Shown: piece after piece, positions 8,004 through 40,225 of the stretch
How the letters are laid out: every line of letters begins with the position of its first letter
Numbering within the stretch: the stretch's first letter is position 1
Program-made: the position numbers and the translations under genes
The notes under the pieces: generated by a model
What the model was told of the DNA's origin: nothing
Seen by the model: only the letters and a program-made list of their open reading frames with translations
Database searches by the model: none
NCBI GenBank assembly: GCA_903927025.1
Contig: CAIYLG010000001.1
Coordinates: forward strand, 1 to 40,846
Direction of reading: 5' to 3'
Length of the DNA: 40,846 nucleotides
Origin: an uncultured Armatimonadota bacterium
GTDB lineage: Bacteria > Armatimonadota > Fimbriimonadia > Fimbriimonadales > Fimbriimonadaceae

Positions 8004-8055
8004 CTCAATTCTCCAGCGGACAAATCTTCCTGGTCATCTTACGATGAGCACCCAT

Positions 8056-9042
8056 CTACTGTGTCTCGCAGCTGAAATTTCTAAGGCAAATCGGTCCGGA
8101 ATCGTTCCATCCGAGGGGTTCGAGAAAGAATCGACGAGCGGTCATTTGCAGGTCCCAGGCGTGAAACGCCAAGTACTGGGTGACTCCATCTGGCCCCACC
8201 ACCACCGAATTGTGGCCCGGGCCAATCAATTCTCCAGGGACGGTGATGAGCAGTCTTGGCTCCATGCCATCGTTCGTGTCCGTATAAGGTCCCATTGGGT
8301 GATTGGACACCACCCAGTCGACGCCGTACGTTTGGTTTTGCCAGTTGCCTCCGCTGTACAGGCAGTAGTAACGGTCGTTGTGCCTAACGGTGAAAGGACC
8401 TTCGAGGGTATGCCAGTCGTAGATTCCGTTGTAGATTGAACGCTTAGACTGATATCGCTGCCAATCGTGGCGAGCCCGCATCACGACTTGGAATTCAGGT
8501 TCCAGATCCACCATGGTTATCAGCCGAGACACCACGAGTGCGGTTCCCGGCCGGGCTCCATTGTCGGAATCCAAAAAGTCGCGCGAATAGAAGAGATACC
8601 ACTGACCGTCTGCGTCTTGGAACGGACTCGCATCAATCGCGAACTCGGCATGACATCGGTCCAGCAGGGGACGGCCGATATCCCGGTATGGACCCTCCGG
8701 TCGATCGCTGGTGGCCACTCTCAGGTGGTGGCCCTTGTCGCCAAAGCCAACCGAAAAGTACATGTAAAACGCCCCATTGCTGTACGCAACCTCGGGTGCC
8801 CAATAGCAGTCGCCCAACTCGGGAAGCTTCTCCAAGACGCAGCCGATTGGATGCCAATCGACAAAATTATGGGAGCACAGCATGGGGATTTCGAGCCCCT
8901 CAGACCCAGGACCTGTCCCTACCGCGTAGTAGATGCCGTCGTGCTGAAACACGAAGGGATCCGCAAAATAGTCGGCAAAAGCGGGTCGATAACTCGTGCG
9001 GTCTTGCTCAGACCCCGCATCAGCGGTGACTCGTGTTGGCAT
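8056..9042 (-). CDS. Glycoside hydrolase family 43 enzyme (five-bladed propeller)
   Basis: An inverting GH43-type enzyme, the family of arabinofuranosidases, xylosidases and related exo-enzymes. The three catalytic positions are visible: the base Asp in 'DYFADPFVF' (about 28), the pKa-modulating Asp in 'FAIDASPF' (about 137), and the acid Glu in 'HTLEGPF' (about 214). Propeller repeats 'GIYYAVG', 'GAFYMYFSVG', 'GQWYLFYSRD' and 'DRYYCLYSGG' are typical. I chose the ATG at 9042; the frame stays open to a TTG at 9102, but those extra 20 residues do not look like the family or a signal peptide. Without a signal it is probably cytoplasmic, acting on imported oligosaccharides. It is divergent from the ArsR-type regulator, a likely controller. 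Substrate is not deducible. Confidence 0.88.
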   Translation of the reverse strand: MPTRVTADAGSEQDRTSYRPAFADYFADPFVFQHDGIYYAVGTGPGSEGLEIPMLCSHNFVDWHPIGCVLEKLPELGDCYWAPEVAYSNGAFYMYFSVGFGDKGHHLRVATSDRPEGPYRDIGRPLLDRCHAEFAIDASPFQDADGQWYLFYSRDFLDSDNGARPGTALVVSRLITMVDLEPEFQVVMRARHDWQRYQSKRSIYNGIYDWHTLEGPFTVRHNDRYYCLYSGGNWQNQTYGVDWVVSNHPMGPYTDTNDGMEPRLLITVPGELIGPGHNSVVVGPDGVTQYLAFHAWDLQMTARRFFLEPLGWNDSGPICLRNFSCETQ

Positions 9043-23897: not shown

Positions 23898-24406
23898 TTC
23901 CCAAACCAGGTGCCACTAAGTGTTTTGCTATTTAGCGCCGGTATTAACCTTTTACTTTCTCTGGTTCCGGTTTGACACCAAAGATTAGCTTTTCGCACGA
24001 ACAAACATTGCGCGAGTCACGGGGCCACTCACACAAATTTGCCCAAGCAGAAACTGGCAAAGTCCAAGCGCTTGAAGAGGAATCTTGGTCACTACAGACC
24101 CATACGCCACGCAGAACGCGTCCTACTCAGACAATATCTACAACTTTAGCAATCCTCATAATGAAGAATAACATTCCAAATGCATAGCTGAAGTGCAGAT
24201 TCCTTGAGTGGAAAAGGAATTCCTGTGAACTAGCATTTTTGGCGACGGGCGTGGCCACCTCAGCCTAATCTTTCGATAGCGGCCAGTTTTGTTCAGGGTC
24301 AATATCGCTGAGACTCGTCTGACCCGGTGCTTCCGAGCGATTCTAGGAAACGTCAGAATAAACTCAAATCAGAAGCGACGGGGGCGGGCATTTGCAGGAG
24401 CAAACA
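23898..24406. other. Intergenic boundary before the defence island, no convincing gene
   Basis: About 500 bp. One plus-strand frame (23972-24187) lacks a ribosome binding site and reads as low-quality protein. I searched by eye for a tRNA (T-loop GTTCRAAT) and for direct repeats that could mark an attachment site and found neither. Base composition shifts here toward more A and T than in the genes to the left. The last bases contain GCAGGAG, the ribosome binding site of the next gene. Confidence 0.4.
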
Positions 24407-25030
24407 ATGGGGCGAGTAAAAATTTCTAAAGCAGAGCTGCGGGAAGCATTGCAACGTATGGTGAAAATCGGAAAACCCAACAAAGCGTCCACGGCTTTTG
24501 TTTGGTCGCTTGATGGCCAGCTATACATCGAACTCCCTTCGATACGCGTGGCTGTGCCGATCGAGGGTGGATTTGAATCCAAGATTGAATTCAATGCTCA
24601 GTGGCTATCACGCTTGTGGATGATGTTGCCAGAGGAAGATTTAGCGGAACTGCTGTTTGAAGCCGACACGGTGCGGACTGGCAGTTTTTCGTTCACTGGA
24701 GAAGCGGTCGCGAAGCGAGATACCGTCCCTACCCACTCCACTTATGTGAACCGAGCTCCATCCAGAGTTCGCGACTGGCTGCGAGACAGATTTCTAGCAG
24801 GAAAGAAAGATAGGTTCGAGGAGTTTGCAATACTTGGCCGCCCTCAAGACTTCATTGATTGGGGACTGTTGAAGGCAGTGGATCCGATTCTTGCCGATCA
24901 CAAAGCACGTATAAAGCGGGCTTCAAGTGCCCTTAAGCAGTACGGCGTCACGCCTGAACAAGTCGAGGGCTTGGCGATTCAAACGATGAGTGCGCAGTTG
25001 GTCGACCAAATGGAAGCCGAATTGCGGTGA
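24407..25030 (+). CDS. Uncharacterised protein, N-terminus resembles one sliding-clamp domain
   Basis: 207 residues. The start is the ATG at 24407, with AGGAG seven bases upstream; the longer TTG frame (24392) would swallow that site. Residues ~3-100 show the alternating helix-strand order of a single DnaN/beta-clamp domain: 'ISKAELREALQRMVKIG', then strands 'TAFVWSLDGQLYIELPSIRV' and 'AVPIEGGF', then 'FNAQWLSRLWMMLPEEDLAE' in the place of the clamp's second helix, then strands 'ELLFEADTVRTGSFSFTG'. The remainder is helical with basic residues. True clamps have three such domains, so this would be a mini-clamp or clamp mimic. The similarity is my reading, not a search result. It heads the four-gene set before the BREX-like operon, 17 bp before the next gene. 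Confidence 0.6.
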   Translation: MGRVKISKAELREALQRMVKIGKPNKASTAFVWSLDGQLYIELPSIRVAVPIEGGFESKIEFNAQWLSRLWMMLPEEDLAELLFEADTVRTGSFSFTGEAVAKRDTVPTHSTYVNRAPSRVRDWLRDRFLAGKKDRFEEFAILGRPQDFIDWGLLKAVDPILADHKARIKRASSALKQYGVTPEQVEGLAIQTMSAQLVDQMEAELR

Positions 25031-25047
25031 TGCATCGCATGGATTAG

Positions 25048-25866
25048 GTGCAAGATTATCCACCAGCTGGTAATGTCTCCAGGGTGGAGATAGACGACAA
25101 ATTACCGATTCCAAACGAGTTCCTTGTGAAGATTCGGGAAACGCACAAGAGGGGACGCGAGAGGATCGAGGTGGGCTACGGTGTTCCAGTCATCAAGGTG
25201 GAACCCGTCGAGGTTGCGGAAATGGTGGAAAGCCACCGATGGGCATGGAGACCCGCAAGGCCACGTCTTGTCCTGGTAGCAGAGTCACACGTCTTCACAA
25301 CCCCTGAAGAGATGGCCGTGCGATACACAAATCCTGTTGGGGCTGAATATGCCCCTTCAAACTATGTTCGCCTCGTGTATTGCCTTGGATACGGTGAATC
25401 AGAACTGGCTTCCGGGCGCAAAGGCGGCACTCCACAGTACTGGGACATCTTTGGGAAGCTTGTCGGCACCTCGCCGAAGAATATTCCTGGAACCACGCCA
25501 GGGACCAGACTCGCGGAAAAGGTTGAGACACTGCGCAGGCTGAAAGCCAGCGGCATTTGGCTCTTAGATGCATCCCTGCACGGTATCTACATGCCAAAGG
25601 GCGAGCGGATTGACGCTGTCAGCGGTGATATCACCCGAGACCTTCAGAAACTTTGGTGGGAAGGCTACGGCAGTGCCCTGCTCAAGCATGCAAAGCCAGA
25701 GAGAGTCATCGCAATTGGAAAAGGACTCTTCAACAATATGAGCTCGGAGATTCCTTTCAACGACTGGATCTACCAGCCGCAGGGCGCTCGGCTCCCTGCA
25801 CAGCGGAAGAAAAACTCCGATACGCTTGGGGAACTCGCAGATTGGCTGCAAAAGAACGTGACGTAA
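25048..25866 (+). CDS. Uncharacterised protein with a uracil-DNA-glycosylase-like fold pattern
   Basis: 272 residues from a GTG, 17 bp after the previous stop. From about residue 73 the strand/motif order resembles the UDG superfamily: 'PRLVLVAESHVFTTPEE' (place of the active-site 'GE/QDP' loop after strand 1), 'SNYVRLVYCLGYGE', 'GIWLLDASLHGIY' (place of the 'LLNxxL' strand), 'ERVIAIGKGLF' (central 'ALG' strand) and 'YQPQGARLPAQR' (place of the 'HPS' loop). The canonical catalytic and leucine-loop residues are not obvious, so glycosylase activity is doubtful; related folds act as uracil-DNA readers or nucleases. This is inference from pattern. No signal peptide or membrane span. Part of the same upstream set. 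Confidence 0.6.
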   Translation: MQDYPPAGNVSRVEIDDKLPIPNEFLVKIRETHKRGRERIEVGYGVPVIKVEPVEVAEMVESHRWAWRPARPRLVLVAESHVFTTPEEMAVRYTNPVGAEYAPSNYVRLVYCLGYGESELASGRKGGTPQYWDIFGKLVGTSPKNIPGTTPGTRLAEKVETLRRLKASGIWLLDASLHGIYMPKGERIDAVSGDITRDLQKLWWEGYGSALLKHAKPERVIAIGKGLFNNMSSEIPFNDWIYQPQGARLPAQRKKNSDTLGELADWLQKNVT

Positions 25867-25922: not shown

Positions 25923-26003
25923 ATGATCGAAACGATTCACCTATCGCGCTCACGCGACTATCGATCACTGGTTGACGAAATTGAGGGGATACTCCAGGCG
26001 TGA
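25923..26003 (+). CDS. Possible 26-codon leader ORF coupled to the next gene
   Basis: ATG at 25923 to TGA at 26001-26003, whose last bases overlap the GTG start of the next gene (GTGA at 26000-26003). The peptide begins 'MIETIHLSRSRDYRSLVDEI'. The stop-start overlap is the same arrangement used throughout the island. No ribosome binding site is obvious and the frame could be extended to a GTG at 25914. It may couple translation rather than make a functional peptide. Confidence 0.3.
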   Translation: MIETIHLSRSRDYRSLVDEIEGILQA

Positions 26004-26623
26004 CGCAATCGAACCTGTTTGAGGAAGGTGATTCTGAGGATGTCCTTCCGAACACACCTGCGCCAGCAGATCAAGATCGGATCCAAGGTGAATTGTCGGA
26101 ACGCGACGAAGATTTGGGCGATGATGATCCCGAAGACGAAATCGAGTTGTTCAGCTTCGCGGAGTCGGACCGCTTGGTTGTCGAGCGATGTCGCAGTGCC
26201 CTGCGAGGATTGCTTGCAAGACCCGACCTGGAGCCTCGATCCATTAGAAACATTGCAACTGTGCTCCAGGCCGTGGAGCGGTTACCGCTCCCGACGCCCG
26301 AATTCTACGGGAGAATCACTACGAAGTCGAACTTCGGCAATTCGTCCGTTTCTCGAACGATAGACATTTCTGAAGACACGTTCAGGCTTGAGGTGCTCGA
26401 GATGTACTCTAGTGACTCGATGGGATCGGATTGGCATTCATCGATCCAATATGAAGTTGGAGTCGGCTGGCGAGACTCTGCAGACGTATACGGGGCGCTC
26501 GAATGGCTCGATCAATTCTCCCAGAGTTCAGAGGTTGGCACCGACGTCGATGAAGATGCACCTCTTATTTGGTCATGTGAAGGTGCGGATGTGGCTTGGG
26601 ATCGACTATTGACGGATCTCTAA
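26000..26623 (+). CDS. Acidic uncharacterised protein with QxxLF N-terminal peptide
   Basis: 207 residues from a GTG (AGGGG about 12 bases upstream). The first ~55 residues are strongly acidic ('SERDEDLGDDDPEDEIELF') and probably disordered; the rest is a mixed alpha/beta domain with a helix 'SDRLVVERCRSALRGLLARP' and several Trp-containing strands. Residues 3-7 are Q-S-N-L-F, fitting the bacterial sliding-clamp-binding consensus QxxLF, of interest because a clamp-like gene lies two genes upstream. The acidic stretch might mimic DNA. Both remarks are inference. No family recognised. Confidence 0.6.
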   Translation: MTQSNLFEEGDSEDVLPNTPAPADQDRIQGELSERDEDLGDDDPEDEIELFSFAESDRLVVERCRSALRGLLARPDLEPRSIRNIATVLQAVERLPLPTPEFYGRITTKSNFGNSSVSRTIDISEDTFRLEVLEMYSSDSMGSDWHSSIQYEVGVGWRDSADVYGALEWLDQFSQSSEVGTDVDEDAPLIWSCEGADVAWDRLLTDL

Positions 26624-26705: not shown

Positions 26706-27527
26706 GTGGCTTCCGTCCTGCTCCATATTCCGCATTCATCGAAGTTCATTCCTCCAGAGTGGCGTTCGATCTTCGTGCTGGATGACGAGGAGTTACAGAA
26801 GGAAATAATCACGATGACAGACAGCTACACCGATGAGCTGTTTGACCTCGGCGGCCGAGCGGATGTCCTTCGGTTTCCAGTATCTCGGCTGCTTGTCGAT
26901 CCTGAGAGGTTCAGAGAGGATTTTGACGAGCCGATGTCCGAGCGGGGAATGGGAGCGGTCTATACAAAAACACACGCTGGAAAGCCCTTAAAGATAGGTT
27001 TCGATCGTGATGCACTTCTTAAAGAATACTACGATCCACTCCATCAGGCCCTTGAAGATTGGGCCGCAATGGCGCTGAAAGAGAATGACACTTGCCTGAT
27101 CATCGATTGCCACTCTTTCCCCTCAGAGCCATTACCATGTGATTTGGATCAGTCGCCAAATCGCCCCGATTTCTGTATTGGAACCACCGCTTTTCACACA
27201 AGCGAAGGGTTAGTGAATGCGATCAAATCCAATTTAGAGATGGTTGGACACTCAGTCTCCATCGACAATCCGTATTCGGGCACGATAGTTCCACTCCTCT
27301 ATCTGTCAAACGAGCCAAGGGTCCAGTCGATCATGATCGAGGTGAATCGACACTTATACATGGACGAGAAGTCTGGAAAGAAGCTTGCTGTGTTTCAAGA
27401 TGTTCAGAGCACAGTGCGTATGGCGCTATCTGTGGCGATCCTGTATCAAATGTTCCCCAAGGACCCATGTGAGCCATCGCAGCCCGCGAGCGATGCGAAA
27501 ATTAAGGAATTCCTTGATTCACTCTAG
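26706..27527 (+). CDS. N-formylglutamate amidohydrolase-family protein
   Basis: 273 residues from a GTG at 26706. Family marks in order: 'VLLHIPHSSKFIPPEW' (metal-binding His region, about 5-20), 'MTDSYTDELFDLG', 'FPVSRLLVDPERF', 'CLIIDCHSFPSE' (metal-binding His, about 139) and 'SIMIEVNRHLYMD' (catalytic Glu region, about 215). In histidine degradation the family removes formate from N-formylglutamate; no hut genes are near, and the position between an acidic unknown gene and a BREX-like operon suggests recruitment to the island, maybe acting on a modified amine or amide. Length is normal. It is followed by a 291-bp gap holding the operon's promoter. Confidence 0.85.
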   Translation: MASVLLHIPHSSKFIPPEWRSIFVLDDEELQKEIITMTDSYTDELFDLGGRADVLRFPVSRLLVDPERFREDFDEPMSERGMGAVYTKTHAGKPLKIGFDRDALLKEYYDPLHQALEDWAAMALKENDTCLIIDCHSFPSEPLPCDLDQSPNRPDFCIGTTAFHTSEGLVNAIKSNLEMVGHSVSIDNPYSGTIVPLLYLSNEPRVQSIMIEVNRHLYMDEKSGKKLAVFQDVQSTVRMALSVAILYQMFPKDPCEPSQPASDAKIKEFLDSL

Positions 27528-27818: not shown

Positions 27819-30800
27819 ATGAAGTACGCAGACCTATTTACTTTGAACGCAATCGAATCAATCATTGAGATTGCGGACGCAGTTGAAGCGGAGAAAGCTC
27901 ACCAGCATGTCTCCACCTTTGTCGTTACCCCTTCTCTAGCCCGTGACCTCACTGAGATCGTGGTTCCTCTTCTTGATCCATCTTCCAACGCTGAAGGAAA
28001 GGGCCTGTTCATCGTTGGAAACTACGGAACGGGAAAGAGCCACTTGATGTCGTTCATTTCCGTCATTGCGGAAAATGCCGATTCGCTTGGGTGGCTTCGA
28101 GAGCCCCAATATGCTGACTCCCTTAAAGCCATCGCTGGCAAGTACATCGTTCGTCGACATGATATCAATGTCGTCGATCCTGCATCCATTACGCTTTACG
28201 ATGTCATCGCCCAGGAACTAACCAAACTGTGCGTCAGCTCTGGTGTCAATTTCGCGTTCAAGCCCAGCAACCAACTCGTTGACCTAAAGGGTGAGCTCCA
28301 GCTATTCATGACCGCTTTCGAAACGGTTCATCCTGATAAAAGCGTGCTGCTTGTGATTGACGAGGTTCTCGATCACCTACGTCGCCTCACCGATCCTCAG
28401 CTGATTCGAGACCTTGGAACATTACGAGCACTTGGTGAATTTTCGGATGGCAGCCGCCTCAAGTTCATGGCGGGCGTCCAGCAGTCGCTCTTCAATAATC
28501 AGCGCTTCCAACACGTCGCTGCTGAAATCAGCCGCATTCGGCAACGGTATGCCGATGTTGTCATAGACAGCAAGGGAGTTGAGCAACTTATTCAATCCTT
28601 TCTTTTCGAAAAGACGTCTGCTCAAAAATCCAATGTCAAGGAGATCCTCCTCAAGCAGAGGGACCTTTTCGAAATCATCGGTCAAGAGATTGATCGGTTC
28701 GTGAACCTTTTCCCTGTTCATCCCAAATTCATCGAAGAATTTGTCCGTATGACTGTTGTTGAAAAACGCGGAATATTGAAGGTACTGACAGCCGAAGGAA
28801 GAGCTCTCCAGCCGCTAGAGGTCGAAGAAGGTGTCCCATCGCTCATCACTGCTGATAAATATTGGCCACACATTGAACGAGACAAGGGCCTTGATGCCGA
28901 CTATGAAGTCCGACAAGTCAAACAGAACGTTGCAACTCTAAAATCTCGAATTGACGTTTCGATTCCAGAAGTGGATCGAGTGCCTGCTACTCGTTTAGTC
29001 GAAGCACTTGCTGTAAACCGCCTCACCACAGCGACGAAGAAGGAACAGATCGGTCTTACTCCAGGTGATCTCAAAGATTCTTTGCTTTGGTTTACGCCTA
29101 TCCCAATGCGGGACTCAAGCTTTCTTACCAAACAGGCGAAGAGTCTCCTGGAAAAAGTTCGAGAAGCGGCAAACGGGCAATTCCTGACTAAATCGCCAAC
29201 ATCTGACCATTACTATATCGACCCGACACTCAACCGAGACTTCGAGCAAGAAGTCCATACAGAGTCCAGAACGCTTTCACCAGACGTAATTCAGCGCTAC
29301 CTCAACGAGTTAGTGACCAGGGCGCTAGACATGACCAACGAGTCACCCGTCGTTGAAAACCGTTTATACAATGCGGCAGTGCAGTGGGTCGATAAGAACG
29401 TCGAACGACCAGGCTGGTTCTTCTTTGGATACCCGAACCTTCGCTCGACAGGTAATCCACCAAAGGATTTCTACATCTTCATCTGTCCTTCGACTCGAAT
29501 CCAAAACTATAAAGAGCACTTCACGCCCGAGCGGGACGAAGCCTACTGGTACCTAGAAGGGTTCCCCTCAGCTCGATTTGAGCAGTCTGAGAAGGACCGC
29601 GAGGACTTTTCTGCCCAATGGCTTGATAAATTGCGCATCTACACAGCAGCAAGAGAGCGAGCTTCTGCAGTCCGCAAGGGGCAAGATGAGCACGCGGCAT
29701 ATTCGGCAATCGCTGAACGCATCCTAAGGGAACTCCTTCCTGAATTCAATTCTCACGCGAATGATTGGGTGACGGTTCAGTACGACCAAGAGAAGAAACC
29801 TTTGGGCGTTTGGATGAATGAAGTGGATCCGAACAACCTCAATGCCAGCTTCCAGACGAAATTCAAGAGCCTCAACCAGTGGTGGTTTGCCGCCGCATTT
29901 GCTCATAAATTCCCAGACTATCCGCGCTTTACCATGGTGCAGACAGAATCTACAAGACCATTTAATGCACGGGCGGCCATTGAAATCATTACGGAAACGG
30001 GATTTGGCATCAAAGGAACCGAGCAAGGCAAATGTGTTCTTAACGCTCTCGGGCTTTATTCGGGAGGTGTCCGTGCCTACGATCAGTCGCCGTGGCTAAA
30101 GGAGGTCAAGGCCAGGCTCTCCAACCTAGGGGACGGCCAATACATCAATGCCTCAGACCTATTCGAAGAAAAAGATGGTCGTAAGTGGTTCAAGGGTGAA
30201 AACCTCGAAGCGGAATGGCTTCTTGTCGCATTGGTCGCTGGCATTGCTGAAGGTGATCTGATCATCGTCGGCAAGCAGAACAATCTGTACGACGCATCAA
30301 AGTTGAGCGATCTGTTCGGCGCGCTCAGAACGGTCGAAGACGTTGTTCGAATCGGAAAACCGAAGAGCCGTCCTCAAGAAGAGTGGAAAGCTCTGTTTGG
30401 GGTCCTCGGCCTCAACAAAGGTGAGCTTGCCCATGAAAGCAAACTCGATCAAGCGATCGGCGGTTTTGTTGACGCATGCAACGTGCGCATCGAAAAGCTT
30501 GTCAGGCTCCAAGAAATCTATAAGAACCCATTGCCTTTCCAAATGCTGGATCAAGGGGCGCCTGAGGGTTTAACGTCCAGGATCCAGACATTGAAAATTG
30601 TCCAGGATCAGCTTGAGTCACTCAAGAACTTGAACTCCAAGGCGAAGATGACGAATCTTCGTCTGTCAACAACCGATATAAAGAGGTTCGGCGACCTGTT
30701 TACCGAATGCAGTGAATTGCAGAATCTTGATGATTTGCTTGCGAAGCACGGTCCGATTCTCGGAGCAATAAAGCGCTATGACGCGATTCTGAAGGACAGG

Positions 30801-31589
30801 GGAGCAGAATATGAGGCGGCAAGTACGGCGTTGGCGACGGCTTTGCATTCGGTTTACGGATCACCACAGACTCTTGCAGACAGAACTCAAGACATTGAAT
30901 CCCTCATCGAATCAGCCAAAACCCTTGCGCTTTCCACTTATCAGGAACTCCACAAGAAGCATCGGCTTGATGCCGCGGGCCTTAAAAGGAAACAGCTTCT
31001 GACAAATGGTACGGCATTTAAGCAGTTCAGAGCTCTGTCGTCCATAAGTAACTTTGGGACTACTAAGCTAGACAGTGCCTACGCCAAACTGGAAAGCTTG
31101 ACCCCCTACAGCCCTGCGTCAGATGAGCAGTTGCTCAAGTCTGCCACGTCCCTTCACCCAATAGACGGGTTTGACCCAAGCAAATTGACTTCTGACTTGA
31201 GTGCGGTTGAATTGCTGGAATCATGCGAAAAGGAACTCGATGCGACGCTTGGAGGGTGGGTGCAAAACCTGCTAAGCGACCTAGACTCCGATCCAATGGT
31301 CCAAGCGAGCATCTCGGCACTGTCGGAAAATGAAAAGAAAGGAATTAATGAATTCCTCAATACACACAAGCTTCCCGACGTGATTGACACCACTTTCATC
31401 TCAGCAGTGAATCAAGTCTTCAGGGGTGTCAAAAAGAGAGTGATCAAGAAAGATGCCTTTACGAAGGCGATCTTTGGGGATGGCGTACCTTTGCGACCTG
31501 ACGACCTCAAACAGCGCGTCAGCGAATGGATAACGTCACAGTTAGATAACGAGGACCCAATGCAAATTCGATTCGTGGTGGAAGAATGA
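27819..31589 (+). CDS. brxC: BREX-type large P-loop ATPase (BrxC/PglY-like, DUF6079 type)
   Basis: 1256 residues. The Walker A is 'GNYGTGKS' (67-74) in 'GLFIVGNYGTGKSHLMSFI', the Walker B 'VLLVIDEVLDHL' (about 175-187). The N-terminal 'ADLFTLNAIESIIEIADAVE' and the long helical remainder are typical of BrxC/PglY ATPases of the DUF6079 kind found in type 3 BREX. In BREX this ATPase is essential for blocking phage DNA replication and, in type 1, for host methylation; its exact activity is unresolved. The ATG at 27819 is taken; a ribosome binding site is not obvious. First gene of a coupled operon: its TGA overlaps the next ATG by four bases (ATGA, 31586-31589). Composition is more AT-rich than the genes before 23900. 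Confidence 0.85.
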   Translation: MKYADLFTLNAIESIIEIADAVEAEKAHQHVSTFVVTPSLARDLTEIVVPLLDPSSNAEGKGLFIVGNYGTGKSHLMSFISVIAENADSLGWLREPQYADSLKAIAGKYIVRRHDINVVDPASITLYDVIAQELTKLCVSSGVNFAFKPSNQLVDLKGELQLFMTAFETVHPDKSVLLVIDEVLDHLRRLTDPQLIRDLGTLRALGEFSDGSRLKFMAGVQQSLFNNQRFQHVAAEISRIRQRYADVVIDSKGVEQLIQSFLFEKTSAQKSNVKEILLKQRDLFEIIGQEIDRFVNLFPVHPKFIEEFVRMTVVEKRGILKVLTAEGRALQPLEVEEGVPSLITADKYWPHIERDKGLDADYEVRQVKQNVATLKSRIDVSIPEVDRVPATRLVEALAVNRLTTATKKEQIGLTPGDLKDSLLWFTPIPMRDSSFLTKQAKSLLEKVREAANGQFLTKSPTSDHYYIDPTLNRDFEQEVHTESRTLSPDVIQRYLNELVTRALDMTNESPVVENRLYNAAVQWVDKNVERPGWFFFGYPNLRSTGNPPKDFYIFICPSTRIQNYKEHFTPERDEAYWYLEGFPSARFEQSEKDREDFSAQWLDKLRIYTAARERASAVRKGQDEHAAYSAIAERILRELLPEFNSHANDWVTVQYDQEKKPLGVWMNEVDPNNLNASFQTKFKSLNQWWFAAAFAHKFPDYPRFTMVQTESTRPFNARAAIEIITETGFGIKGTEQGKCVLNALGLYSGGVRAYDQSPWLKEVKARLSNLGDGQYINASDLFEEKDGRKWFKGENLEAEWLLVALVAGIAEGDLIIVGKQNNLYDASKLSDLFGALRTVEDVVRIGKPKSRPQEEWKALFGVLGLNKGELAHESKLDQAIGGFVDACNVRIEKLVRLQEIYKNPLPFQMLDQGAPEGLTSRIQTLKIVQDQLESLKNLNSKAKMTNLRLSTTDIKRFGDLFTECSELQNLDDLLAKHGPILGAIKRYDAILKDRGAEYEAASTALATALHSVYGSPQTLADRTQDIESLIESAKTLALSTYQELHKKHRLDAAGLKRKQLLTNGTAFKQFRALSSISNFGTTKLDSAYAKLESLTPYSPASDEQLLKSATSLHPIDGFDPSKLTSDLSAVELLESCEKELDATLGGWVQNLLSDLDSDPMVQASISALSENEKKGINEFLNTHKLPDVIDTTFISAVNQVFRGVKKRVIKKDAFTKAIFGDGVPLRPDDLKQRVSEWITSQLDNEDPMQIRFVVEE

Positions 31590-32452
31590 AGTGGGCCATC
31601 CATTTCTGGACGGCCCTTAAGGTTCGCCTTGGCGGTCATATGAATTACGAGTCAATGACTCCATCCACAGAGGCTCCGACCCAAGGACACCAACCCAATT
31701 ATAGCGCAAGTCCAACTGCGCCTCAGCTTAGTCCTCTGGAACGGACGCGTATATGGCAAAAGTGGGAGGCAGTTGCCCCGAGTCGGATGGCGGCCTTCGT
31801 GGAACTAACTGACTCGTGCCCTCTCGAACCTGCGGGCAGATACATTTGGGCCACACACCTCTCTGCATCGATCGCCCCTGCATTACATACGTTCGAAGTT
31901 GCACTACGAAATGCAATGCATAGCGCGCTGAGCGATTACTACCAACGTGCAGATTGGTATGCGATACCTCAATTCTTTCAGCCACAAGAGGGTGGGTTGA
32001 TTAAAACCGCGATAGGGAACGCAAAGAACAAGGCCAAGAAAGCGAATCGACCTCATACGCCCGATGACGTTGTTTCCGAACTTATGCTCGGCTTCTGGTG
32101 CGGGCTCCTCAATAGTCCGTATGACACATCCGTTTTCCGTCCCTGCCTTTCTCGCGGGTTCCGAAACCTTCCTGCTCCGCTTAAGGTCCGATCCGACCTC
32201 AATAGCAAGGTCGTAGAGTTCAAGCGAATTAGGAATCGCGTCTTCCATCACGAGCCGATCTGGAACTACCCTGGAATCGACCAGGTAGAAGCGGAGCTCT
32301 GGGTTCTTGCGGAGGCCTTATATCCCGAGTACTCCATCCTAAGCCAGGACCAATCGCATTTTCAACAGATCTTCCACAATCGCTCGGCGTGCAAGGTAGC
32401 ACTGGATAATTGCCTTGCGATGTGTGTAGCACAAGGACGAATCCTACCATGA
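31586..32452 (+). CDS. Abi-like HEPN-domain protein (probable RNase effector) within the BREX operon
   Basis: 288 residues. After a ~50-residue variable N-terminus comes an all-helical domain with 'ALHTFEVALRNAMHSALSDY' (about 95-115), 'DDVVSELMLGFWCGLL' and the HEPN-type catalytic motif in 'FKRIRNRVFHHEPIWN' (about 213-228), where R-N-R-V-F-H is R-x4-H, as in Abi-like proteins. HEPN domains are metal-independent RNases in many abortive-infection and toxin systems. The ATG at 31586 overlaps the brxC stop (ATGA) and its own stop overlaps the methyltransferase start (ATGA), so it is translated as part of the operon; a second ATG at 31640 is possible. It has no counterpart in the standard BREX type 3 set. 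Confidence 0.8.
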   Translation: MKWAIHFWTALKVRLGGHMNYESMTPSTEAPTQGHQPNYSASPTAPQLSPLERTRIWQKWEAVAPSRMAAFVELTDSCPLEPAGRYIWATHLSASIAPALHTFEVALRNAMHSALSDYYQRADWYAIPQFFQPQEGGLIKTAIGNAKNKAKKANRPHTPDDVVSELMLGFWCGLLNSPYDTSVFRPCLSRGFRNLPAPLKVRSDLNSKVVEFKRIRNRVFHHEPIWNYPGIDQVEAELWVLAEALYPEYSILSQDQSHFQQIFHNRSACKVALDNCLAMCVAQGRILP

Positions 32453-35346
32453 ACGACAGGCTTTTCGAATTCGAACCTCCAACTTGGCATTCGTCCAATG
32501 AACTAACCTCCGAGAAAAAAGCCGAGTACAGGCGACGGCTAGCCGAAAAGCTCCGTGACCCCGCGTTCAGGAGCATTGAGGGCTTCCCAATCGGAACTGA
32601 TGAAGCGATTCTGGCCTTGTCTGATCCACCTAACTACACTGCATGTCCTAATCCGTTTATTGACGAATGGCTTTCGGAGAACGCCAAGCCGTATGACCCC
32701 GAAACAGACAACTACCACAGAGTGCCGTTTGCTGCGGATGTGAGTGAGGGTAAGAGTCACCCGATCTACAGCGCGCACGGTTACCACACCAAGGTGCCCC
32801 ACCGTGCAATCATGCGCTATGTGCTCCACTACACCGAACCTGGAGAAGTCGTTTATGACGGGTTCTGCGGTACGGGAATGACGGGAGTAGCGGCACAACT
32901 TTGCGGAGACAAAGCCGAGGTCGAGGCCCTTGGTTCCGACTCGAAGAGTGGCACACCTGGAGACTACAAGGTAGACGGCAATGGCAACATTTGGGACCGA
33001 GCAGCGTGGGAATCTAACCAGGCAATAAGGGCAGGACGACCGAATCCGCACCCTTTTTTGACCGATCCACAGCCGTTCAGCAAACTTGGGGCACGCAAGG
33101 CGATTCTCAATGACTTGTCCCCTTCCGCTACATTCATCGCTTACAACTATAACGCTCCCGTGGATGCCATAGCGTTCGAGCTTGAAGCAAAACGCATCTT
33201 GGCAGATTCCGAAGCGGAGTGCGGCTGGATGTACACGACCCTTCACCGTGAGCCAGGCAAATGGAATGACGCCGAATGGGACGCATTCGTGGCTCAGGCA
33301 GCAAACGAGTTATCTAAATGCACCGATGTACAATCGGTAAAAGCTTACTTACTTCAAATCGGCCAAGGTGCTGCCTTAGGTCACGTTGAATTCATGGTCT
33401 GGTCCGACGTGCTCCTTTGTCCCCAATGTGCGGGCGACATTGTATTCTTCGACGCCGCGTCTGATCCAACCTCAGGTGCAGTAGCCGAGAGCTTTCCTTG
33501 CCCAACTTGCCGTGCGGAGGTAACTAAGCGGAGCTGTGGAATGAAGAAGGTCTCTGTTTACGATCGAGATCTGGATCGATCTGTATCGGTTCCCGCTCAA
33601 GAAGCTGTGCGAATAACATATTCAGCGTCAGGAAAACGGCACGAGAAGAAAACAGACTCGTTCGACCTAGCTATAACAGCCTTAAGTGATGTTTTGCCGA
33701 TCCTTGACTCGTTTCCAAAGGGAGAATTGCCCCACATGCATATGACGCATGAACGTGCGAGCATGGCCAATAAGGGAATTTCGCACATTCATCACTTTCA
33801 TACGGCCCGCTCACGCCGTGCCTTAGCTACGTTGTGGCGATTGGCAGGAACTGTTCGAGACGACAGACTCCGCAGGTTCGTGTATTTTACGGTTGATCAG
33901 ACAATCTGGGGCCTTTCTAAGCTTGCTAGATTTGTTCCGACCCACTTTTCTCAAGTCAATCAATACTTGAACGGTGTTTACTATATAGGTTCGCTAAGGG
34001 CAGAGGTAGCACCAGATTACATTCTTTCTGGGAAAGTGAAACGGCTCACAGCTCTCTTCAGTAGGTTTATGCCCTTTTCGCAGAACCTTGTCCTCACGGG
34101 TTCATGCTCGACTGCCTTACCTCGCCCTCAATCACTGGACTACATATTCACTGATCCTCCCTTTGGAGAAAACATTTATTACGCTGATCTTAATTTTCTT
34201 GTTGAGTCCTGGTACGGGCTAATGACAGATGCTAAACCCGAAGCAATCGTCGATCAAGCCAAGAAGAAGGCTCTTATCCACTACCAGCAGGCGATGACGG
34301 CATGTTTTAGAGCGTATTACGAAGCTCTGAAACCAGGCAGGTGGATGACGGTGGAGTTTTCGAATTCCTCTAATGCAGTTTGGAATGCGATTCAGGAAGG
34401 CCTGGAGAAGGTGGGATTTGTTGTAGCCGACATTCGTATCCTAGATCGCTTAAGCGGCTCCTACCGTCAAGTTACGGCGACGAGCGCTGTCAAGCAAGAC
34501 CTTATTATCTCTTGCTACAAGCCGACAGACCGTTTTATAAGGGAATTCTCTACACACAAGGGATCTGTAGCGGGAGTACGAGAATTTGTGGAACAGCACC
34601 TTGAAATGGTTCCTGTTGCACCAATCACAAAGGCGGGAAAAATTGAAAGCCTTACGGAGCGCACCCATAGTGTTTTATATGACCGTATGGTTGGCTATCA
34701 CCTGGTGCACGGGGCACCGATACCTCTAAGCGCCGTCGAGTTTGAGAGCCTACTAATTGAACGCTTCTACAAGGAAGATGGAATGTGGTTTTTGCCGAAT
34801 CAGTTGGCGAGTTACCAAGCACGGAAGATGCGGGGAGCAGAACCCGAACAGCTGGCTTTTTATGTCCAGGATGAAAAGAGTGCTGTTCGATGGGTCCGCA
34901 CGGAGTTGGACGAATCCCAGCAGACCCTAGGCGAACTTACCCCTAAGTTCATGCGAGAGCTCAAGGAATGGCCGAATACCGAGCCTCGACCTGAATTGCG
35001 AGATTTAATGAAGGAGTACTTTATTCAGAACTTGGACGGGAGCTGGGCGATCCCCGATCCTGAGAACGAGGAGCATCTCGCCACACTGCGTCGCAACCAG
35101 ATGTTGAAGCTCTTCCGTGTTTATGCCACCGACAAGGGCAAACTGACATCCTTCCGCAAAGAGGCTGTCATCGAGGGCTTTAAGCACTGCTGGCAGACCA
35201 AGCAATACGGCGTCATCGTCAAAGTCGCTAAACGCATGAAAGAGGCTGACTTACATTCGGACCGTGAACTTATGCAGTTCTACGATGTTGCCAACGACAT
35301 GACCCCTGAAGACGAGGGCGGCCAGCTTGAACTGGTGATGGACTGA
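32449..35346 (+). CDS. pglX: BREX-type DNA adenine methyltransferase (PglX/PglXI-like) with zinc ribbon
   Basis: 965 residues. The SAM-binding motif is 'VVYDGFCGTGMTGVAAQLCG' (about 134-153) and the catalytic motif 'IFTDPPFGENIYYADL' (DPPF about 569-572), i.e. amino-methyltransferase motifs in the order I then IV, with about 420 residues between them. This insert holds a zinc ribbon (CPQC at about 324, CPTC at about 350). The N-terminal 'GTDEAILALSDPPNYTACPN' also carries a DPP. COG1743-type enzymes with a Zn ribbon are the PglXI of type 3 BREX, which methylates host DNA for self-recognition; the target is unknown. I use the ATG at 32449, overlapping the previous TGA; the longer frame (32410) adds an unlikely Cys-rich start. 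The typical DUF1156 N-terminus is not evident. Confidence 0.85.
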   Translation: MNDRLFEFEPPTWHSSNELTSEKKAEYRRRLAEKLRDPAFRSIEGFPIGTDEAILALSDPPNYTACPNPFIDEWLSENAKPYDPETDNYHRVPFAADVSEGKSHPIYSAHGYHTKVPHRAIMRYVLHYTEPGEVVYDGFCGTGMTGVAAQLCGDKAEVEALGSDSKSGTPGDYKVDGNGNIWDRAAWESNQAIRAGRPNPHPFLTDPQPFSKLGARKAILNDLSPSATFIAYNYNAPVDAIAFELEAKRILADSEAECGWMYTTLHREPGKWNDAEWDAFVAQAANELSKCTDVQSVKAYLLQIGQGAALGHVEFMVWSDVLLCPQCAGDIVFFDAASDPTSGAVAESFPCPTCRAEVTKRSCGMKKVSVYDRDLDRSVSVPAQEAVRITYSASGKRHEKKTDSFDLAITALSDVLPILDSFPKGELPHMHMTHERASMANKGISHIHHFHTARSRRALATLWRLAGTVRDDRLRRFVYFTVDQTIWGLSKLARFVPTHFSQVNQYLNGVYYIGSLRAEVAPDYILSGKVKRLTALFSRFMPFSQNLVLTGSCSTALPRPQSLDYIFTDPPFGENIYYADLNFLVESWYGLMTDAKPEAIVDQAKKKALIHYQQAMTACFRAYYEALKPGRWMTVEFSNSSNAVWNAIQEGLEKVGFVVADIRILDRLSGSYRQVTATSAVKQDLIISCYKPTDRFIREFSTHKGSVAGVREFVEQHLEMVPVAPITKAGKIESLTERTHSVLYDRMVGYHLVHGAPIPLSAVEFESLLIERFYKEDGMWFLPNQLASYQARKMRGAEPEQLAFYVQDEKSAVRWVRTELDESQQTLGELTPKFMRELKEWPNTEPRPELRDLMKEYFIQNLDGSWAIPDPENEEHLATLRRNQMLKLFRVYATDKGKLTSFRKEAVIEGFKHCWQTKQYGVIVKVAKRMKEADLHSDRELMQFYDVANDMTPEDEGGQLELVMD

Positions 35347-35358
35347 TGGTAGAAGCGA

Positions 35359-38037
35359 TTGCGTAGCTCAATTCCAGATTCAGAGTTGTCTTTAGCTTCG
35401 GTTGCGATCGGCGACCGTGCGTGGGCCAATCCTGGATCGTGTTGGGTCAGAGTTATTGAGACCAAGCGCCTCCTTGGGCGTGACGTTGCGAAGGTCATGA
35501 TTGAAGGTTCGGACCGAGTTGCCACGTACCCCATATCAACACTATTTCCCAATCGATCGCTAAACCTAGGGCAGGCTCTTTCGACTGTTGCGGCAGCTCG
35601 AATCTGGTCCGCATTAGGCTCCGATCTTTTCCTTTCTCCCCTGGTGAGCAAGGTTTTGCCCCTTCCTCACCAATTTCGCGTAATTCGCAGAGCAATGAGC
35701 GGCTATCCCGTACGTATGATGCTGGCGGATGAAGTGGGTCTGGGCAAGACGATCGAGGCGGGCCTGGTCATCAAGGAACTCAAGCTTCGTGGATTAGTCG
35801 AGAGAGTCCTGGTGATGACGCCGAAGAGCCTCTTACTCCAATGGGTCAGTGAGATGGACACACTCTTTGATGAACGATTTGAACTCGTCCTTCCTGGCGA
35901 CTGGGGAGCCAGCGTTGCTATGCGAGGTGACAACGAGTGGAAACGCTATAACCAGGTGATCACTTCTTTTGATAGCGTAAAGCCGAAAGACAACCATAAA
36001 GGTTGGGATCGTGAAAGGATCGAACGCTATAACTTGGAGCGGTTCCACGACCTGATAAGCGCGGGTTGGGACCTCGTGATTCTCGATGAGGCACACAAAC
36101 TCGCGGGCGCTTCTGATGACGTTGCGCGATATGCTTTGGCGGATGCAGTGTCAAGATCGGCTCCCAATGTTCTTTTACTAACAGCAACCCCGCACTCAGG
36201 TAAGAGTGACGCCTTTCGAAGACTCTTGGCGCTTTTGGATGAAGCTTCCTTTGGCGAAGGGGCACCTATCAATCGAGAGTCGGTGGCTCCATTTGTTATT
36301 CGCACCGACAAGCGAAATGCAGTCGATGCCGATGGCAAAGCACTGTTTGCACCCCGTGTCACGAAGCTCATTCGAGTGCCATTTGAAGCTAGGCACGCAC
36401 TGCAAGAGCAACTCTACGATTCAGTTTCAGAGTATGTAATTGAGGGATACCGACAGGCAGAACGACAGGGCGACAAAGGCTCTCGGCTCCTCCTCATCAT
36501 GATTCAGCGATTGATGAGCAGCAGCACTCGATCCGTTCGCAGATTTTTGGAAAAGCGACTGGTTGCCTTGCGGGAAGAAGAAGCGACTCTACGTAATTCA
36601 ACGCTCGATGCCGAGTCGACGGGTGAAGAACTGGAGCAGCAGACTCTTTTCTACTTTCCGACATCAAGCAAGGAAGAGGAAGAGCTTGAGACGCTTCTGA
36701 CTCTTTGCAGGCAAGTGGAATCCTCTGGTGCGGATGTAAGGGCGGAGGCACTTCTTGATCAAATGCGGTCGATAGCTCGTGATGATGAAGACCTAAATCA
36801 GAAGTTCTTGATCTTCACAGAGTTCACGGAGACGCAAGCAATGATCCAAGACTTCCTCACCGCTCGTGGATATGAGGTGGCGATCCTTAATGGATCAATG
36901 GACCTTGAAGAGCGCAAGCAAGCCCAGGAGACCTTCAGGAACCATGCCCAAGTACTCGTGATGACCGATGCGGGCGCGGAAGGACTGAACATGCAGTTTG
37001 CGCATGTGGTGATTAACTACGACCTTCCTTGGGCACCGATGCGAGTCGAACAAAGAATTGGACGTGTCGATCGAATTGGACAGAAGAAGGAAGTTATTGC
37101 GATCAACCTCGTTCTTGAAAACTCGGTTGAAGCAAGAGTTTACGAAGTCTGGCTGACCAAACTCCAAACCATCCTGGAAGAATTCGGCGTGGATAAAGCG
37201 GGCGATGTGCTCGACTCCTCTGAAGCAACCGCTCAGTTTGAGAGACTGGCTCAAGCCGCACTGCTGAGGCCCCAGACCTTTGACAACGAGATTGATAAGG
37301 TTGTCACCGATATCCGCAGAGCAGCCAAGGAAGCACAGGATTCGAGCCACCTCATTGAATCAAAACTTGAGGAAGCGGATCGTGCGCCGAGTATTCCTTT
37401 GCGTGCATGGCTCGACACGATGTCTCAGGTACAGCAGCTAACGCTGGTTGATGAAGTGAAAGGCGATGAGTTCAGCGAGTCGGTTATTCGATCCATCAAT
37501 GAGTTAAAGCCCTATTCCACACTTGGAAAGCCTGTTCCACTGGTGAACCTGGACGGGTTGGGATTCGAGGCTATTGGATGGTTTTCTCTCTGGAAAATTG
37601 GCATTGCCGATGGTGCCTGGAGACAGCAAAGGGTATTTCCCCTGTTTGTTACCAACGAAGGGCAAAGCTTCCAGCGAACGGCAGAAAGAATATGGGATGT
37701 GCTTGCCGCTCGGACGGTTGAGATCACTGCCACTGAAGAGGTTGAACCAACGTCGCAACACGAGATTGAGTCTGTGGCTGAAGGCCTTGCACAAGAATTC
37801 TTTGACGGTGTGCAGGCCAAAACAATCGAGCGAGCCCGCAGAAGACTCAATTCGCTTGAGATGAGCTATCTTCAGCGCCGAACAGCTCTTACCAAGATTG
37901 GATTGGACAACGTTCGAGAGGTCCGCCGAACCGAACTGGAATCGGAGTACAACAGTCGCCGCAAAGAGATTGAGTCGACAACAGATATGCTCCCAGACCT
38001 TGAATGCCTGGTGACATTTAGAGTGCAGGCAAGATGA
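35359..38037 (+). CDS. brxHII: SNF2/RapA-type helicase-like ATPase (BrxHII-like)
   Basis: 892 residues. A ~60-residue beta-rich N-terminus precedes the two RecA-like domains: Walker A 'LADEVGLGKTIEAG' (Lys130), 'VILDEAHKLAG' (DEAH 243-246), 'LLLTATPHSGK', then domain 2 'FLIFTEFTETQAMIQDFL' and 'QRIGRVDRIGQKKEV' (motif VI, from 565). An acidic linker with 'EQQTLFYF' (about 427) joins them, and ~280 residues of helical tail follow. Such proteins translocate on duplex DNA; BrxHII is the helicase of type 3 BREX. The start is a TTG 12 bases after the methyltransferase stop. An ATG overlapping that stop (35346) runs only six codons, one base out of frame with this gene, so a small indel at the start is possible. 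Confidence 0.85.
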   Translation: MRSSIPDSELSLASVAIGDRAWANPGSCWVRVIETKRLLGRDVAKVMIEGSDRVATYPISTLFPNRSLNLGQALSTVAAARIWSALGSDLFLSPLVSKVLPLPHQFRVIRRAMSGYPVRMMLADEVGLGKTIEAGLVIKELKLRGLVERVLVMTPKSLLLQWVSEMDTLFDERFELVLPGDWGASVAMRGDNEWKRYNQVITSFDSVKPKDNHKGWDRERIERYNLERFHDLISAGWDLVILDEAHKLAGASDDVARYALADAVSRSAPNVLLLTATPHSGKSDAFRRLLALLDEASFGEGAPINRESVAPFVIRTDKRNAVDADGKALFAPRVTKLIRVPFEARHALQEQLYDSVSEYVIEGYRQAERQGDKGSRLLLIMIQRLMSSSTRSVRRFLEKRLVALREEEATLRNSTLDAESTGEELEQQTLFYFPTSSKEEEELETLLTLCRQVESSGADVRAEALLDQMRSIARDDEDLNQKFLIFTEFTETQAMIQDFLTARGYEVAILNGSMDLEERKQAQETFRNHAQVLVMTDAGAEGLNMQFAHVVINYDLPWAPMRVEQRIGRVDRIGQKKEVIAINLVLENSVEARVYEVWLTKLQTILEEFGVDKAGDVLDSSEATAQFERLAQAALLRPQTFDNEIDKVVTDIRRAAKEAQDSSHLIESKLEEADRAPSIPLRAWLDTMSQVQQLTLVDEVKGDEFSESVIRSINELKPYSTLGKPVPLVNLDGLGFEAIGWFSLWKIGIADGAWRQQRVFPLFVTNEGQSFQRTAERIWDVLAARTVEITATEEVEPTSQHEIESVAEGLAQEFFDGVQAKTIERARRRLNSLEMSYLQRRTALTKIGLDNVREVRRTELESEYNSRRKEIESTTDMLPDLECLVTFRVQAR

Positions 38038-39704
38038 AATGGGTGAAGAGAATTGCCGACGACATCTCACCTGCCTTCGGCGGATTTCCAACCTTTGTCG
38101 TTGATCCAGATTCGCTGCTAGACATTCCTGAACTTCGAGAAGAACTACACAAACGGAACGTAACCATTGAGCAGTGGAGTGGAACTGCTGAGGAACTCCC
38201 CAGTTGGAACAGAGTCCATGAGGACAACAAACTCGTCATCCAAGTCTCTTCTGACTGTCCTGTTCACTTGATTGGCGAAGTCGTTTCTGAACAGGTGACT
38301 ATCGATATCAGTATTTCTAAACTGTTTCGTAAATTCGATCCTGAAGTGGCTCGACACGTGGCAAAAGAATATTGGGACATGCTCCTAAGCCTCCAGGATC
38401 GTGAAAAACCCTTGCGAACGAAAAGAGAATCCGCTCTTGTCATTGCAAGGGCAATCTATGGCATCGATGAACTCTATGGATCACTGCATGGATGGGATTC
38501 CTACGTCGCTGGAGTTGCTGAATCGGGTGAGGCCATTCCTCAGATAATTGTTGATGAACTGCTTGGGGTCTCAGGGGATGACAAGGTGATGCTCCTGGCT
38601 GACATGTCTGCGGCTAGACTTGCCTCACGCCAGACATCTGCAGCTTTACACCTTGCTGTTTCAGAACCGAAGGCATCGATAAGGTCTTCAAAGAAAAAGG
38701 CGATCATCGAGTCTGTTCCCGAATTGGTAAGGGCGTTTCGTAACGAGAAGTTATTAGCGCCAGATCTCCTCGCCCTTGCATACAAATATGCAGACGCTGT
38801 TCGAGCTGGCCTTGGGATAAACGATCGCGAAGCCTGCAACAAGGCGTTCCGTACTTGGCTTGGCAAAAACTATGATCTGATGCTCAACAGTCAGAACCTC
38901 CAAGTTCTGCGACTTCATCGTTTGATCGACCAACTCGATGGCGAATGCGGAAGTGACAGAATGGCCTTCTTCGTGGTCGATGCTATGGGGCTTGAACCAT
39001 GGCTTGAAATCGATCGAGTTTGGAGACAGCGAGGCATTCACTCGAAGACAATTGAACGATCTGCTTTTGCAGTCATACCAACCCTGACCAATCTGTCACG
39101 ACGTGCTATCTTCGAACGAGCCCTTCCACCTCAATTTGGGAAGGGTATCCATGGCCCATCCCTTGAACGATCGCTTTGGACCCAACGATTTCCAGACGGA
39201 GCCTATTTCAGCGCGGGCGAATATGAAGCGTTCCGAGATGCCCTATACCAAGGGAAATCGCGAGTTGCACTCGTTGATGTCTCTTGGGACAAGCGGGGCC
39301 ACTCGATTGATCCTGACACCGAGACTATTGCTGAAGCTGCGAGCGCCTGGGCAAACAAGTGCGCCGTGGCCGAAGCTGTGAAGGAAGCCTTGGATCAGGG
39401 ATATGCAGTTTATTTGACGGCAGACCATGGTCAAATCGCTGGTAAAGGCCTTGGGATGCCCAACTCTGGATCGGCGATCGAGGATCGTTCTAAGCGGGTG
39501 TTGGTATTCTCATCGAACGCCACATTGAACTCGCATAGAGACTTTGGCGATACCGAGTTTAGGCCGATTACCGTTCCGAATGGGCAGTTTCCTTTGTTCC
39601 CAGCATACGGGGATTCATACGACAACAAGGGAGTTGGCTCGGTTTCCCACGGCGGATACAGCATCGAGGAAGTGATTGTGCCAGTGGTTGAGGTTAGGAA
39701 GTAG
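38034..39704 (+). CDS. pglZ: PglZ-family alkaline-phosphatase-fold protein
   Basis: 556 residues. The C-terminal PglZ domain has the alkaline phosphatase superfamily metal and nucleophile positions: Asp316 in 'FFVVDAMGLEPW', the Thr nucleophile in 'IPTLTNLSRR' (350 or 352), Asp464-His465 in 'YLTADHGQIAGKG', and His539 in 'SHGGYSIEEVIVP'. The ~310-residue N-terminal part is helical. PglZ is the hallmark of all BREX types; a nuclease or phosphodiesterase role is reported for some but its job in defence is unclear. The ATG overlaps the helicase stop by four bases (ATGA), and the TAG stop overlaps the next GTG by one base. All core residues are present, so it should be active. Confidence 0.92.
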   Translation: MKWVKRIADDISPAFGGFPTFVVDPDSLLDIPELREELHKRNVTIEQWSGTAEELPSWNRVHEDNKLVIQVSSDCPVHLIGEVVSEQVTIDISISKLFRKFDPEVARHVAKEYWDMLLSLQDREKPLRTKRESALVIARAIYGIDELYGSLHGWDSYVAGVAESGEAIPQIIVDELLGVSGDDKVMLLADMSAARLASRQTSAALHLAVSEPKASIRSSKKKAIIESVPELVRAFRNEKLLAPDLLALAYKYADAVRAGLGINDREACNKAFRTWLGKNYDLMLNSQNLQVLRLHRLIDQLDGECGSDRMAFFVVDAMGLEPWLEIDRVWRQRGIHSKTIERSAFAVIPTLTNLSRRAIFERALPPQFGKGIHGPSLERSLWTQRFPDGAYFSAGEYEAFRDALYQGKSRVALVDVSWDKRGHSIDPDTETIAEAASAWANKCAVAEAVKEALDQGYAVYLTADHGQIAGKGLGMPNSGSAIEDRSKRVLVFSSNATLNSHRDFGDTEFRPITVPNGQFPLFPAYGDSYDNKGVGSVSHGGYSIEEVIVPVVEVRK

Positions 39705-40225
39705 TGGAAAGGATTCCCCTGTTATTCGACAAAATGATCAAGCCTGAGTGGTTTGATTTTGCCCTTGAGCGGTTCGTGTCTTCTGATAGTGAAGATGCTT
39801 TGAGAACCGAATTGCGCGATTGGCTCAAGAGTGAAGACCTGAGTCAAGTCAGTATTGACAAGACAATTCGGGTCCTCCAAAAAGTTGTTGGATTCAGAAG
39901 TACGCTCACCAAATCAGAACTTCAAGAACTCTACAATCGGCTCAACCAGTTGACGCCAGACGAAAGGGCTCACGAGCGACTTCAAATGCTGATCCAAAAC
40001 AACGCATTCTTTTCAGATTGTGTGCAGTGCATCCGAAGACGAGCGCTCAATGGGGCAACATTTATTACCGTAATGGAAATGTATGAGGCGCTTCAGAAGC
40101 AATACGGATACCGACAATCCGTCACTCGACGCATCCGATATGTTCTTCAGACACTTGCCGCCTTTGGATGCCTGGAAAACAGGGATCGAGTTTGGCACTT
40201 CAAAGATGATTCACCGTTACTGTAA
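39704..40225 (+). CDS. Small helical/winged-helix protein in the BrxA position
   Basis: 173 residues from a GTG sharing one base with the PglZ stop. It starts 'MERIPLLFDKMIKPEWFDFA', is helical throughout ('ELQELYNRLNQLTPDERAHE'), and ends with a winged-helix-like part 'YRQSVTRRIRYVLQTLAAFG' followed by a short strand pair 'CLENRDRVWHF'. In type 3 BREX the gene after pglZ is brxA, a DNA-binding winged-helix protein of about 200 residues; the position, length and C-terminal pattern fit, but the sequence alone does not prove a DUF1819 match, so I leave the symbol empty. It is the last gene of the operon. Confidence 0.65.
   Translation: MERIPLLFDKMIKPEWFDFALERFVSSDSEDALRTELRDWLKSEDLSQVSIDKTIRVLQKVVGFRSTLTKSELQELYNRLNQLTPDERAHERLQMLIQNNAFFSDCVQCIRRRALNGATFITVMEMYEALQKQYGYRQSVTRRIRYVLQTLAAFGCLENRDRVWHFKDDSPLL

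Follow-up and report, generated by a model that had tools for sequence, protein, structure and literature searches.

What is a small protein that resembles one domain of the replicative sliding clamp DnaN doing beside a BREX defence locus? This question is raised by a 40,846-nt stretch of DNA from an uncultured Armatimonadota bacterium, the whole of which is hereafter called the window, and in which an original prediction made from the sequence alone had pointed to a possible single-domain clamp protein. The features of the window are collected in Table 1. The predicted gene is real: its coordinates are exact, the AGGAG and the 207-aa length agree with a coding frame, and the protein has homologues with reciprocal matches (1.8e-6 and 7.9e-7 between the window protein and the closest intact member). 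Given that these homologues occur in other genomes and in another phylum, and that they are co-linear through the clamp region, a chance ORF can be ruled out. The window protein had no family match in Pfam, PADLOC, PHROG or NCBIfam, the DnaN models of Pfam and NCBIfam included, and a single-sequence phmmer search found no match among PDB sequences.

Table 1. Positions of the clamp gene, its parts and the neighbouring genes in the window
Feature	Position	Strand	Basis
Ribosome-binding site AGGAG, 6 nt ahead of ATG	24396..24400	+	Sequence
Gene, single-clamp-domain protein, 207 aa	24407..25030	+	ATG 24407 to TGA 25030; homologues in other genomes
Clamp domain, residues 1-109, closest to DnaN domain 1	24407..24733	+	AlphaFold2; VIA-align Z 12.9; hhalign 94%
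Basic turn after helix 1 (K20, K23, K26)	24464..24484	+	Aligns with E. coli DnaN residues 19-26, including R24
Block FNAQWLSRLWMMLPEEDLAE, residues 62-81, strand 5/helix 2 of clamp domain	24590..24649	+	AlphaFold2, profile alignment
Helical C-terminal region, residues ~119-206	24761..25024	+	AlphaFold2, pLDDT ~55-78; sequence kept in G131, G398 and G660
Unknown 272-aa ORF, 17 bp 3' of clamp gene	25048..25866	+	No family match
Unknown 207-aa ORF	26000..26623	+	No family match
N-formylglutamate amidohydrolase-domain protein	26706..27527	+	Pfam FGase 1.7e-44
BrxC (DUF6079 AAA+ ATPase)	27819..31589	+	PADLOC BrxC 3.2e-241
PD-T4-5/Abi_2-like protein within BREX operon	31586..32452	+	PADLOC 4.1e-16
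PglXI DNA methyltransferase	32410..35346	+	PADLOC PglXI, E 0
BrxH helicase, SNF2 type	35359..38037	+	PADLOC BrxHI 5.5e-281
PglZ	38034..39704	+	PADLOC 6.6e-47
BrxA	39704..40225	+	PADLOC 7.7e-13

The AlphaFold2 model gives residues 1-103 of the window protein the topology of a DNA clamp, with pLDDT values of about 80-88 over most of that length. The predicted elements follow the order E-H-E-E-E-E-H-E-E-E, forming the two b-a-b-b-b halves of one clamp domain, and this is the order of helices and strands (b-a-b-b-b-b-a-b-b-b) that had been guessed from the letters. When the model was compared with the PDB, Foldseek detected 54 matches at E <= 0.001, the 50 listed being bacterial DnaN without exception. 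Similarly, VIA-align detected 480 PDB chains at Z >= 8, again with bacterial DnaN in all 50 listed entries; the best match was to DnaN domain 1 (Z 12.9, 2.3 Å over 105 residues), and DnaN domains 2 and 3 scored close behind. Phage clamps were the first matches in the BFVD viral structure library. The family member from genome G094, modelled as its own query, also adopted the clamp topology (pTM 0.66, core pLDDT 81-91) and matched DnaN domain 1 at Z 13.5, in agreement with Foldseek; the two models are not fully independent, since both rest on three-row alignments of the same three sequences. By its modelled topology, the window protein belongs to the clamp-fold superfamily. Among the viral matches, the phage proteins A0A6J5L0N7, A0A6G8RAZ0 and A0A4P7XPB6 (123-150 aa) match the clamp domain and could be one-domain clamps or fragments.

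The resemblance to DnaN extends beyond the model to the sequence, given that profile scores exceed those of controls and that beta clamps appear among the matches of the family profile. For this comparison, a DnaN alignment was built from 31 genomes and the family was aligned to it with hhalign. An alignment of six members scored 39.1 against domain 1 (probability 89.6%), 30.7 against domain 3 and 19.3 against domain 2, with column-shuffled controls reaching no higher than 16.4 and the reversed alignment giving 14 (at most 16.1). The seven-member alignment reached 40.7 against domain 1, whereas 100 column shuffles peaked at 17.0; the eight-member alignment, compared with E. coli DnaN among the DnaN sequences, reached 45.2 (probability 94.2%, P 1.2e-7, 90 collinear columns). 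In the eight-member comparison, the block FNAQWLSRLWMMLPEEDLAE of the window protein aligns with E. coli DnaN from about residue 70 (VPARKFFDICRGLP). When PDB sequences were searched with the family profile by hmmsearch, 15 sub-threshold matches were returned, six of them beta clamps. Judged by these profiles, the clamp likeness of the family is strongest to DnaN domain 1. Both comparisons proposed with the original prediction, of a structural model with known clamps and of a family alignment with clamp profiles, therefore bore out the clamp domain: DnaN ranked first and neither a different fold nor a lack of clamp matches was found, and the profile score far exceeded those of the shuffled controls.

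The window protein has the two-fold b-a-b-b-b topology of DnaN domain 1 (Z 12.9-13.5, 2.0-2.4 Å over about 101-105 residues, profile probability 94%), but it comprises one clamp domain where DnaN has three, gives no Pfam DnaN match, adds a helical tail and is encoded with restriction systems. In DnaN, partner peptides bind in a pocket between domains 2 and 3; the window protein lacks these domains and the pocket with them. Because both the three domains and the peptide pocket are lacking, the window protein falls within the clamp fold superfamily but outside the replicative DnaN family. The host genome has its own DnaN candidate, a 387-aa frame on a different contig. The claim of a single-domain protein holds in that there is one clamp domain and no second, whereas the idea of a bare domain has to be given up, as a helical C-terminal region is added. 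PCNA and phage clamps have the domain fold in common with the clamp protein, with no sequence match found, and PCNA carries two domains per chain rather than one. Clamps described so far have two or three domains in each chain and act in replication and repair (PMC4858162, PMC11139829). A 2026 survey of BREX components mentions neither clamps nor DnaN or PCNA (PMC12839542), and our literature search, with subscription papers and preprints largely outside its scope, found no clamp in defence loci and no single-domain clamp. A lone clamp domain as a defence accessory would seem to be an undescribed reuse of replication machinery by bacteria.

The family is rare and divergent, the eight intact members found coming from Armatimonadota and at least one further phylum. 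Among 291 Armatimonadota genomes searched, relatives were detected in G094 and G131, the contigs of which were recovered by a two-sequence alignment scan of contigs, and a profile search of Armatimonadota genomes added G137, G096 and G226. Wider searches yielded intact members in G398 and G660, along with a decayed copy in G372, all three from another phylum. Low-scoring matches in G173, G071, G176, G460, G504 and others contained stops or fell in large frames and were excluded as chance. No relatives were detected by tblastn searches of family members against plasmids and of one member against phages, or in scans of viral contigs. Identity to the window protein is about 17-26% in the clamp region, through which the eight intact members are co-linear. 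The helical C-terminal region is common to the window protein and the members in G131, G398 and G660, all four of which carry a motif like R-x-x-x-I-x-x-A-x-x-x-L-x-x-Y-G-V/I there. The members in G094, G137 and G096 consist of little beyond the clamp domain, and that in G226 has an N-terminal extension. The relative in G372 (L079, about 7936-8232) has an in-frame TAG and seems to have decayed; inspection by eye revealed no defence genes nearby. In G094, a second, truncated copy beyond brxL (L009 1976-2134) shares 55% identity with the window protein across 53 residues, and the BREX-1 locus of this genome is thus flanked by one intact and one broken clamp-like gene.

As the original prediction had proposed, the clamp gene of the window adjoins BREX genes, which occupy positions 27819-40225 on the same strand with PADLOC matches. 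It lies 2.8 kb 5' of this BREX type 3-like operon, with three genes intervening. The type 3 genes brxC, pglXI, brxH, pglZ and brxA were all found in the window with PADLOC; no BrxF match was obtained among the ten window proteins tested, and the window ends soon after brxA. In G094, the clamp gene is located 162 bp 5' of brxA in a complete BREX-1 locus (brxA-brxB-brxC-pglX-pglZ-brxL), again on the strand of the core BREX genes. Three further members are encoded in operons of Hma, which is classed as a BREX-related system in the 2026 survey that re-defined BREX (PMC12839542), and in these operons the genes overlap or are closely spaced. In G096, the clamp gene is preceded by HmaA and a TmtA-like gene and followed by HmaB and HmaC; in G398, where HmaA and HmaC belong to the same operon, it follows a GmrSD gene and overlaps HmaB by 64 bp; and in G660, it overlaps the gene on either side, sitting between a TmtA-like gene and the HmaB-HmaC end of an operon that also includes HmaA. 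The association extends to type III restriction loci, with the clamp gene 39 bp behind a res-mod pair in G226 and, in G137, beside an oppositely transcribed type III-like mod/res pair, where it overlaps a 595-aa gene. In G131, the gene is only loosely near a defence gene, an HKD-SNF2 helicase 7.6 kb away. The common thread of these loci is a DNA methyltransferase together with an SF2 helicase, and genes that overlap on the same strand are stronger evidence of operon membership than proximity by itself.

Hma as described comprises a helicase, a methylase and an ATPase only (PMC8565338); in some loci, the clamp gene is added to these. In the plasmid-borne Hma of Bradyrhizobium, whose TmtA-like protein is 55% identical, no clamp gene could be recognised; the clamp gene is therefore an accessory, missing from some Hma loci, and neither essential to Hma nor a fixed part of it. 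In each of the three Hma loci with a clamp gene, this gene follows one for a large TmtA-like protein (L034 4645-8772, L083 12131-16388, L090 9346-13551), which is split in G398; the arrangement suggests that a TmtA-like protein with a clamp marks an Hma subtype. An expectation that a clamp gene would follow every TmtA-like gene in Hma was ruled out by the Bradyrhizobium and Niveispirillum loci.

The single clamp domain, the lack of the other two and the repeated operon linkage are established here, whereas DNA contact, oligomerisation, loading and function are inferred. The explanation we tentatively prefer is that the protein is a stand-alone clamp domain related to DnaN domain 1 and serves BREX-1, BREX-3, Hma and type III restriction-modification systems as an accessory subunit that embraces or tethers DNA. 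The domain may descend from the N-terminal domain of bacterial DnaN or share common ancestry with it. In E. coli DnaN, R24 in the helix-1 turn and R73 are DNA-facing positions. All members compared have a basic turn after helix 1, with K or R at the position of K20 in the seven members tabulated, and since this turn aligns with that of R24, DNA contact by the clamp protein is plausible. The R73 position is not conserved (Q in the window protein, variable in the family), and the fact that the helix-1 turn is the only DNA-facing element kept speaks against the preferred reading. Regarding self-association, Ile78 and Phe106 of one DnaN subunit face Ile272 and Leu273 of the other in the dimer interface (PMC11139829). 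In the clamp family, L70, aligned with Ile78, is hydrophobic in 8/8 members, and I21, aligned with Ile272, in 7/8; these positions would allow head-to-tail self-association, although the alignment is only suggestive in this respect.

Several copies might join head to tail, possibly six per ring, or a single copy might dock on a DNA-bound complex; in either case, the methyltransferase and helicase machinery would be kept on the DNA being scanned. In BREX and Hma, an ORC/Cdc6-type AAA+ protein, BrxC or HmaC/DUF499, could place the clamp protein on DNA, as BrxC and DUF499 have been described as sharing a STAND/ORC-Cdc6 AAA+ domain (PMC12839542). The type III restriction-modification loci, which are without an AAA+ loader, argue against this loading step. 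The most specific version, in which six identical one-domain subunits loaded by the ORC/Cdc6-like ATPase of BREX or Hma would form a dedicated processivity ring for DNA restriction and modification rather than for replication, is unlikely.

The original prediction had offered two roles, loading of island proteins onto DNA or poisoning of a phage clamp, and the recurrent linkage to methyltransferases and helicases broadly favours the former. For poisoning, a domain-1-like unit would cap the open domain-3 face of a phage or host DnaN protomer, so that the ring could not close and replication would stop, with the protein acting as a back-up effector. The best match is indeed to DnaN domain 1, whose partner in the ring is domain 3 of the second subunit (PMC11139829), and the position aligned with interface residue Ile78 is hydrophobic throughout the family; moreover, toxins that target DnaN exist, namely SocB and RipA (PMC12795458), and back-up effectors are frequent in BREX and BR loci, those that are nucleases having been catalogued (PMC12839542). 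However, the family also resembles domain 3 and mostly retains a hydrophobic residue at the Ile272 position, so self-pairing may occur, no recurring antitoxin-like partner accompanies the gene, and a place between core operon genes fits a component better than a toxin. We regard clamp poisoning as unlikely, though a serious rival.

A role as a monomeric scaffold of clamp fold that binds protein or DNA and forms no ring, for example an adaptor or sensor that recognises the phage replisome or clamp-binding peptides and signals to the restriction complex, is doubtful, if rather less so. The variation in architecture, from clamp domains alone (G094, G137, G096) to those with a helical tail or an N-terminal extension, is as in docking modules, and the Bradyrhizobium Hma has other small proteins at the site near its TmtA-like gene; yet recognition of peptides would have to do without the DnaN pocket, both domains that form its borders being missing here. 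That the gene is a decaying fragment or cargo of a mobile island with no defence role is very improbable: the stop-containing pseudogene in G372, the truncated second copy in G094 and the rarity of the family would fit it, but the eight intact members keep the fold pattern and the reading frame across two phyla at their low identity, and the gene holds the same position in three Hma operons. A lone clamp domain that turns up repeatedly with BREX, Hma and type III restriction systems would tie the replication machinery to defence by DNA scanning, and would offer a concrete, testable component for the study of how these systems hold and scan DNA. A single-domain clamp may also be informative about the evolution of clamp rings from single domains.

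Several other genes in these loci deserve mention. The 595-aa protein of G137 (L033 7084-8871) and a protein of about 634 aa in G096 (L085 7291-9192) have similar N-terminal sequences and adjoin or lie near the clamp genes; the former had no Pfam or PADLOC match and the latter no PADLOC match. The G131 region encodes a protein with a weak RNase_H_2 match, and in the BREX-1 operon of G094 a 332-aa gene without a PADLOC match (L009 8849-9847) is located between pglX and pglZ. In the window, the PDB matches of the ORF next to the clamp gene (F-box/WD proteins, 27 residues) look like chance. The N-formylglutamate amidohydrolase-domain gene directly 5' of brxC encodes an unusual enzyme for a BREX locus, and the PD-T4-5/Abi_2-like gene between brxC and pglXI overlaps brxC at its 5' end and the pglXI ORF at its 3' end.
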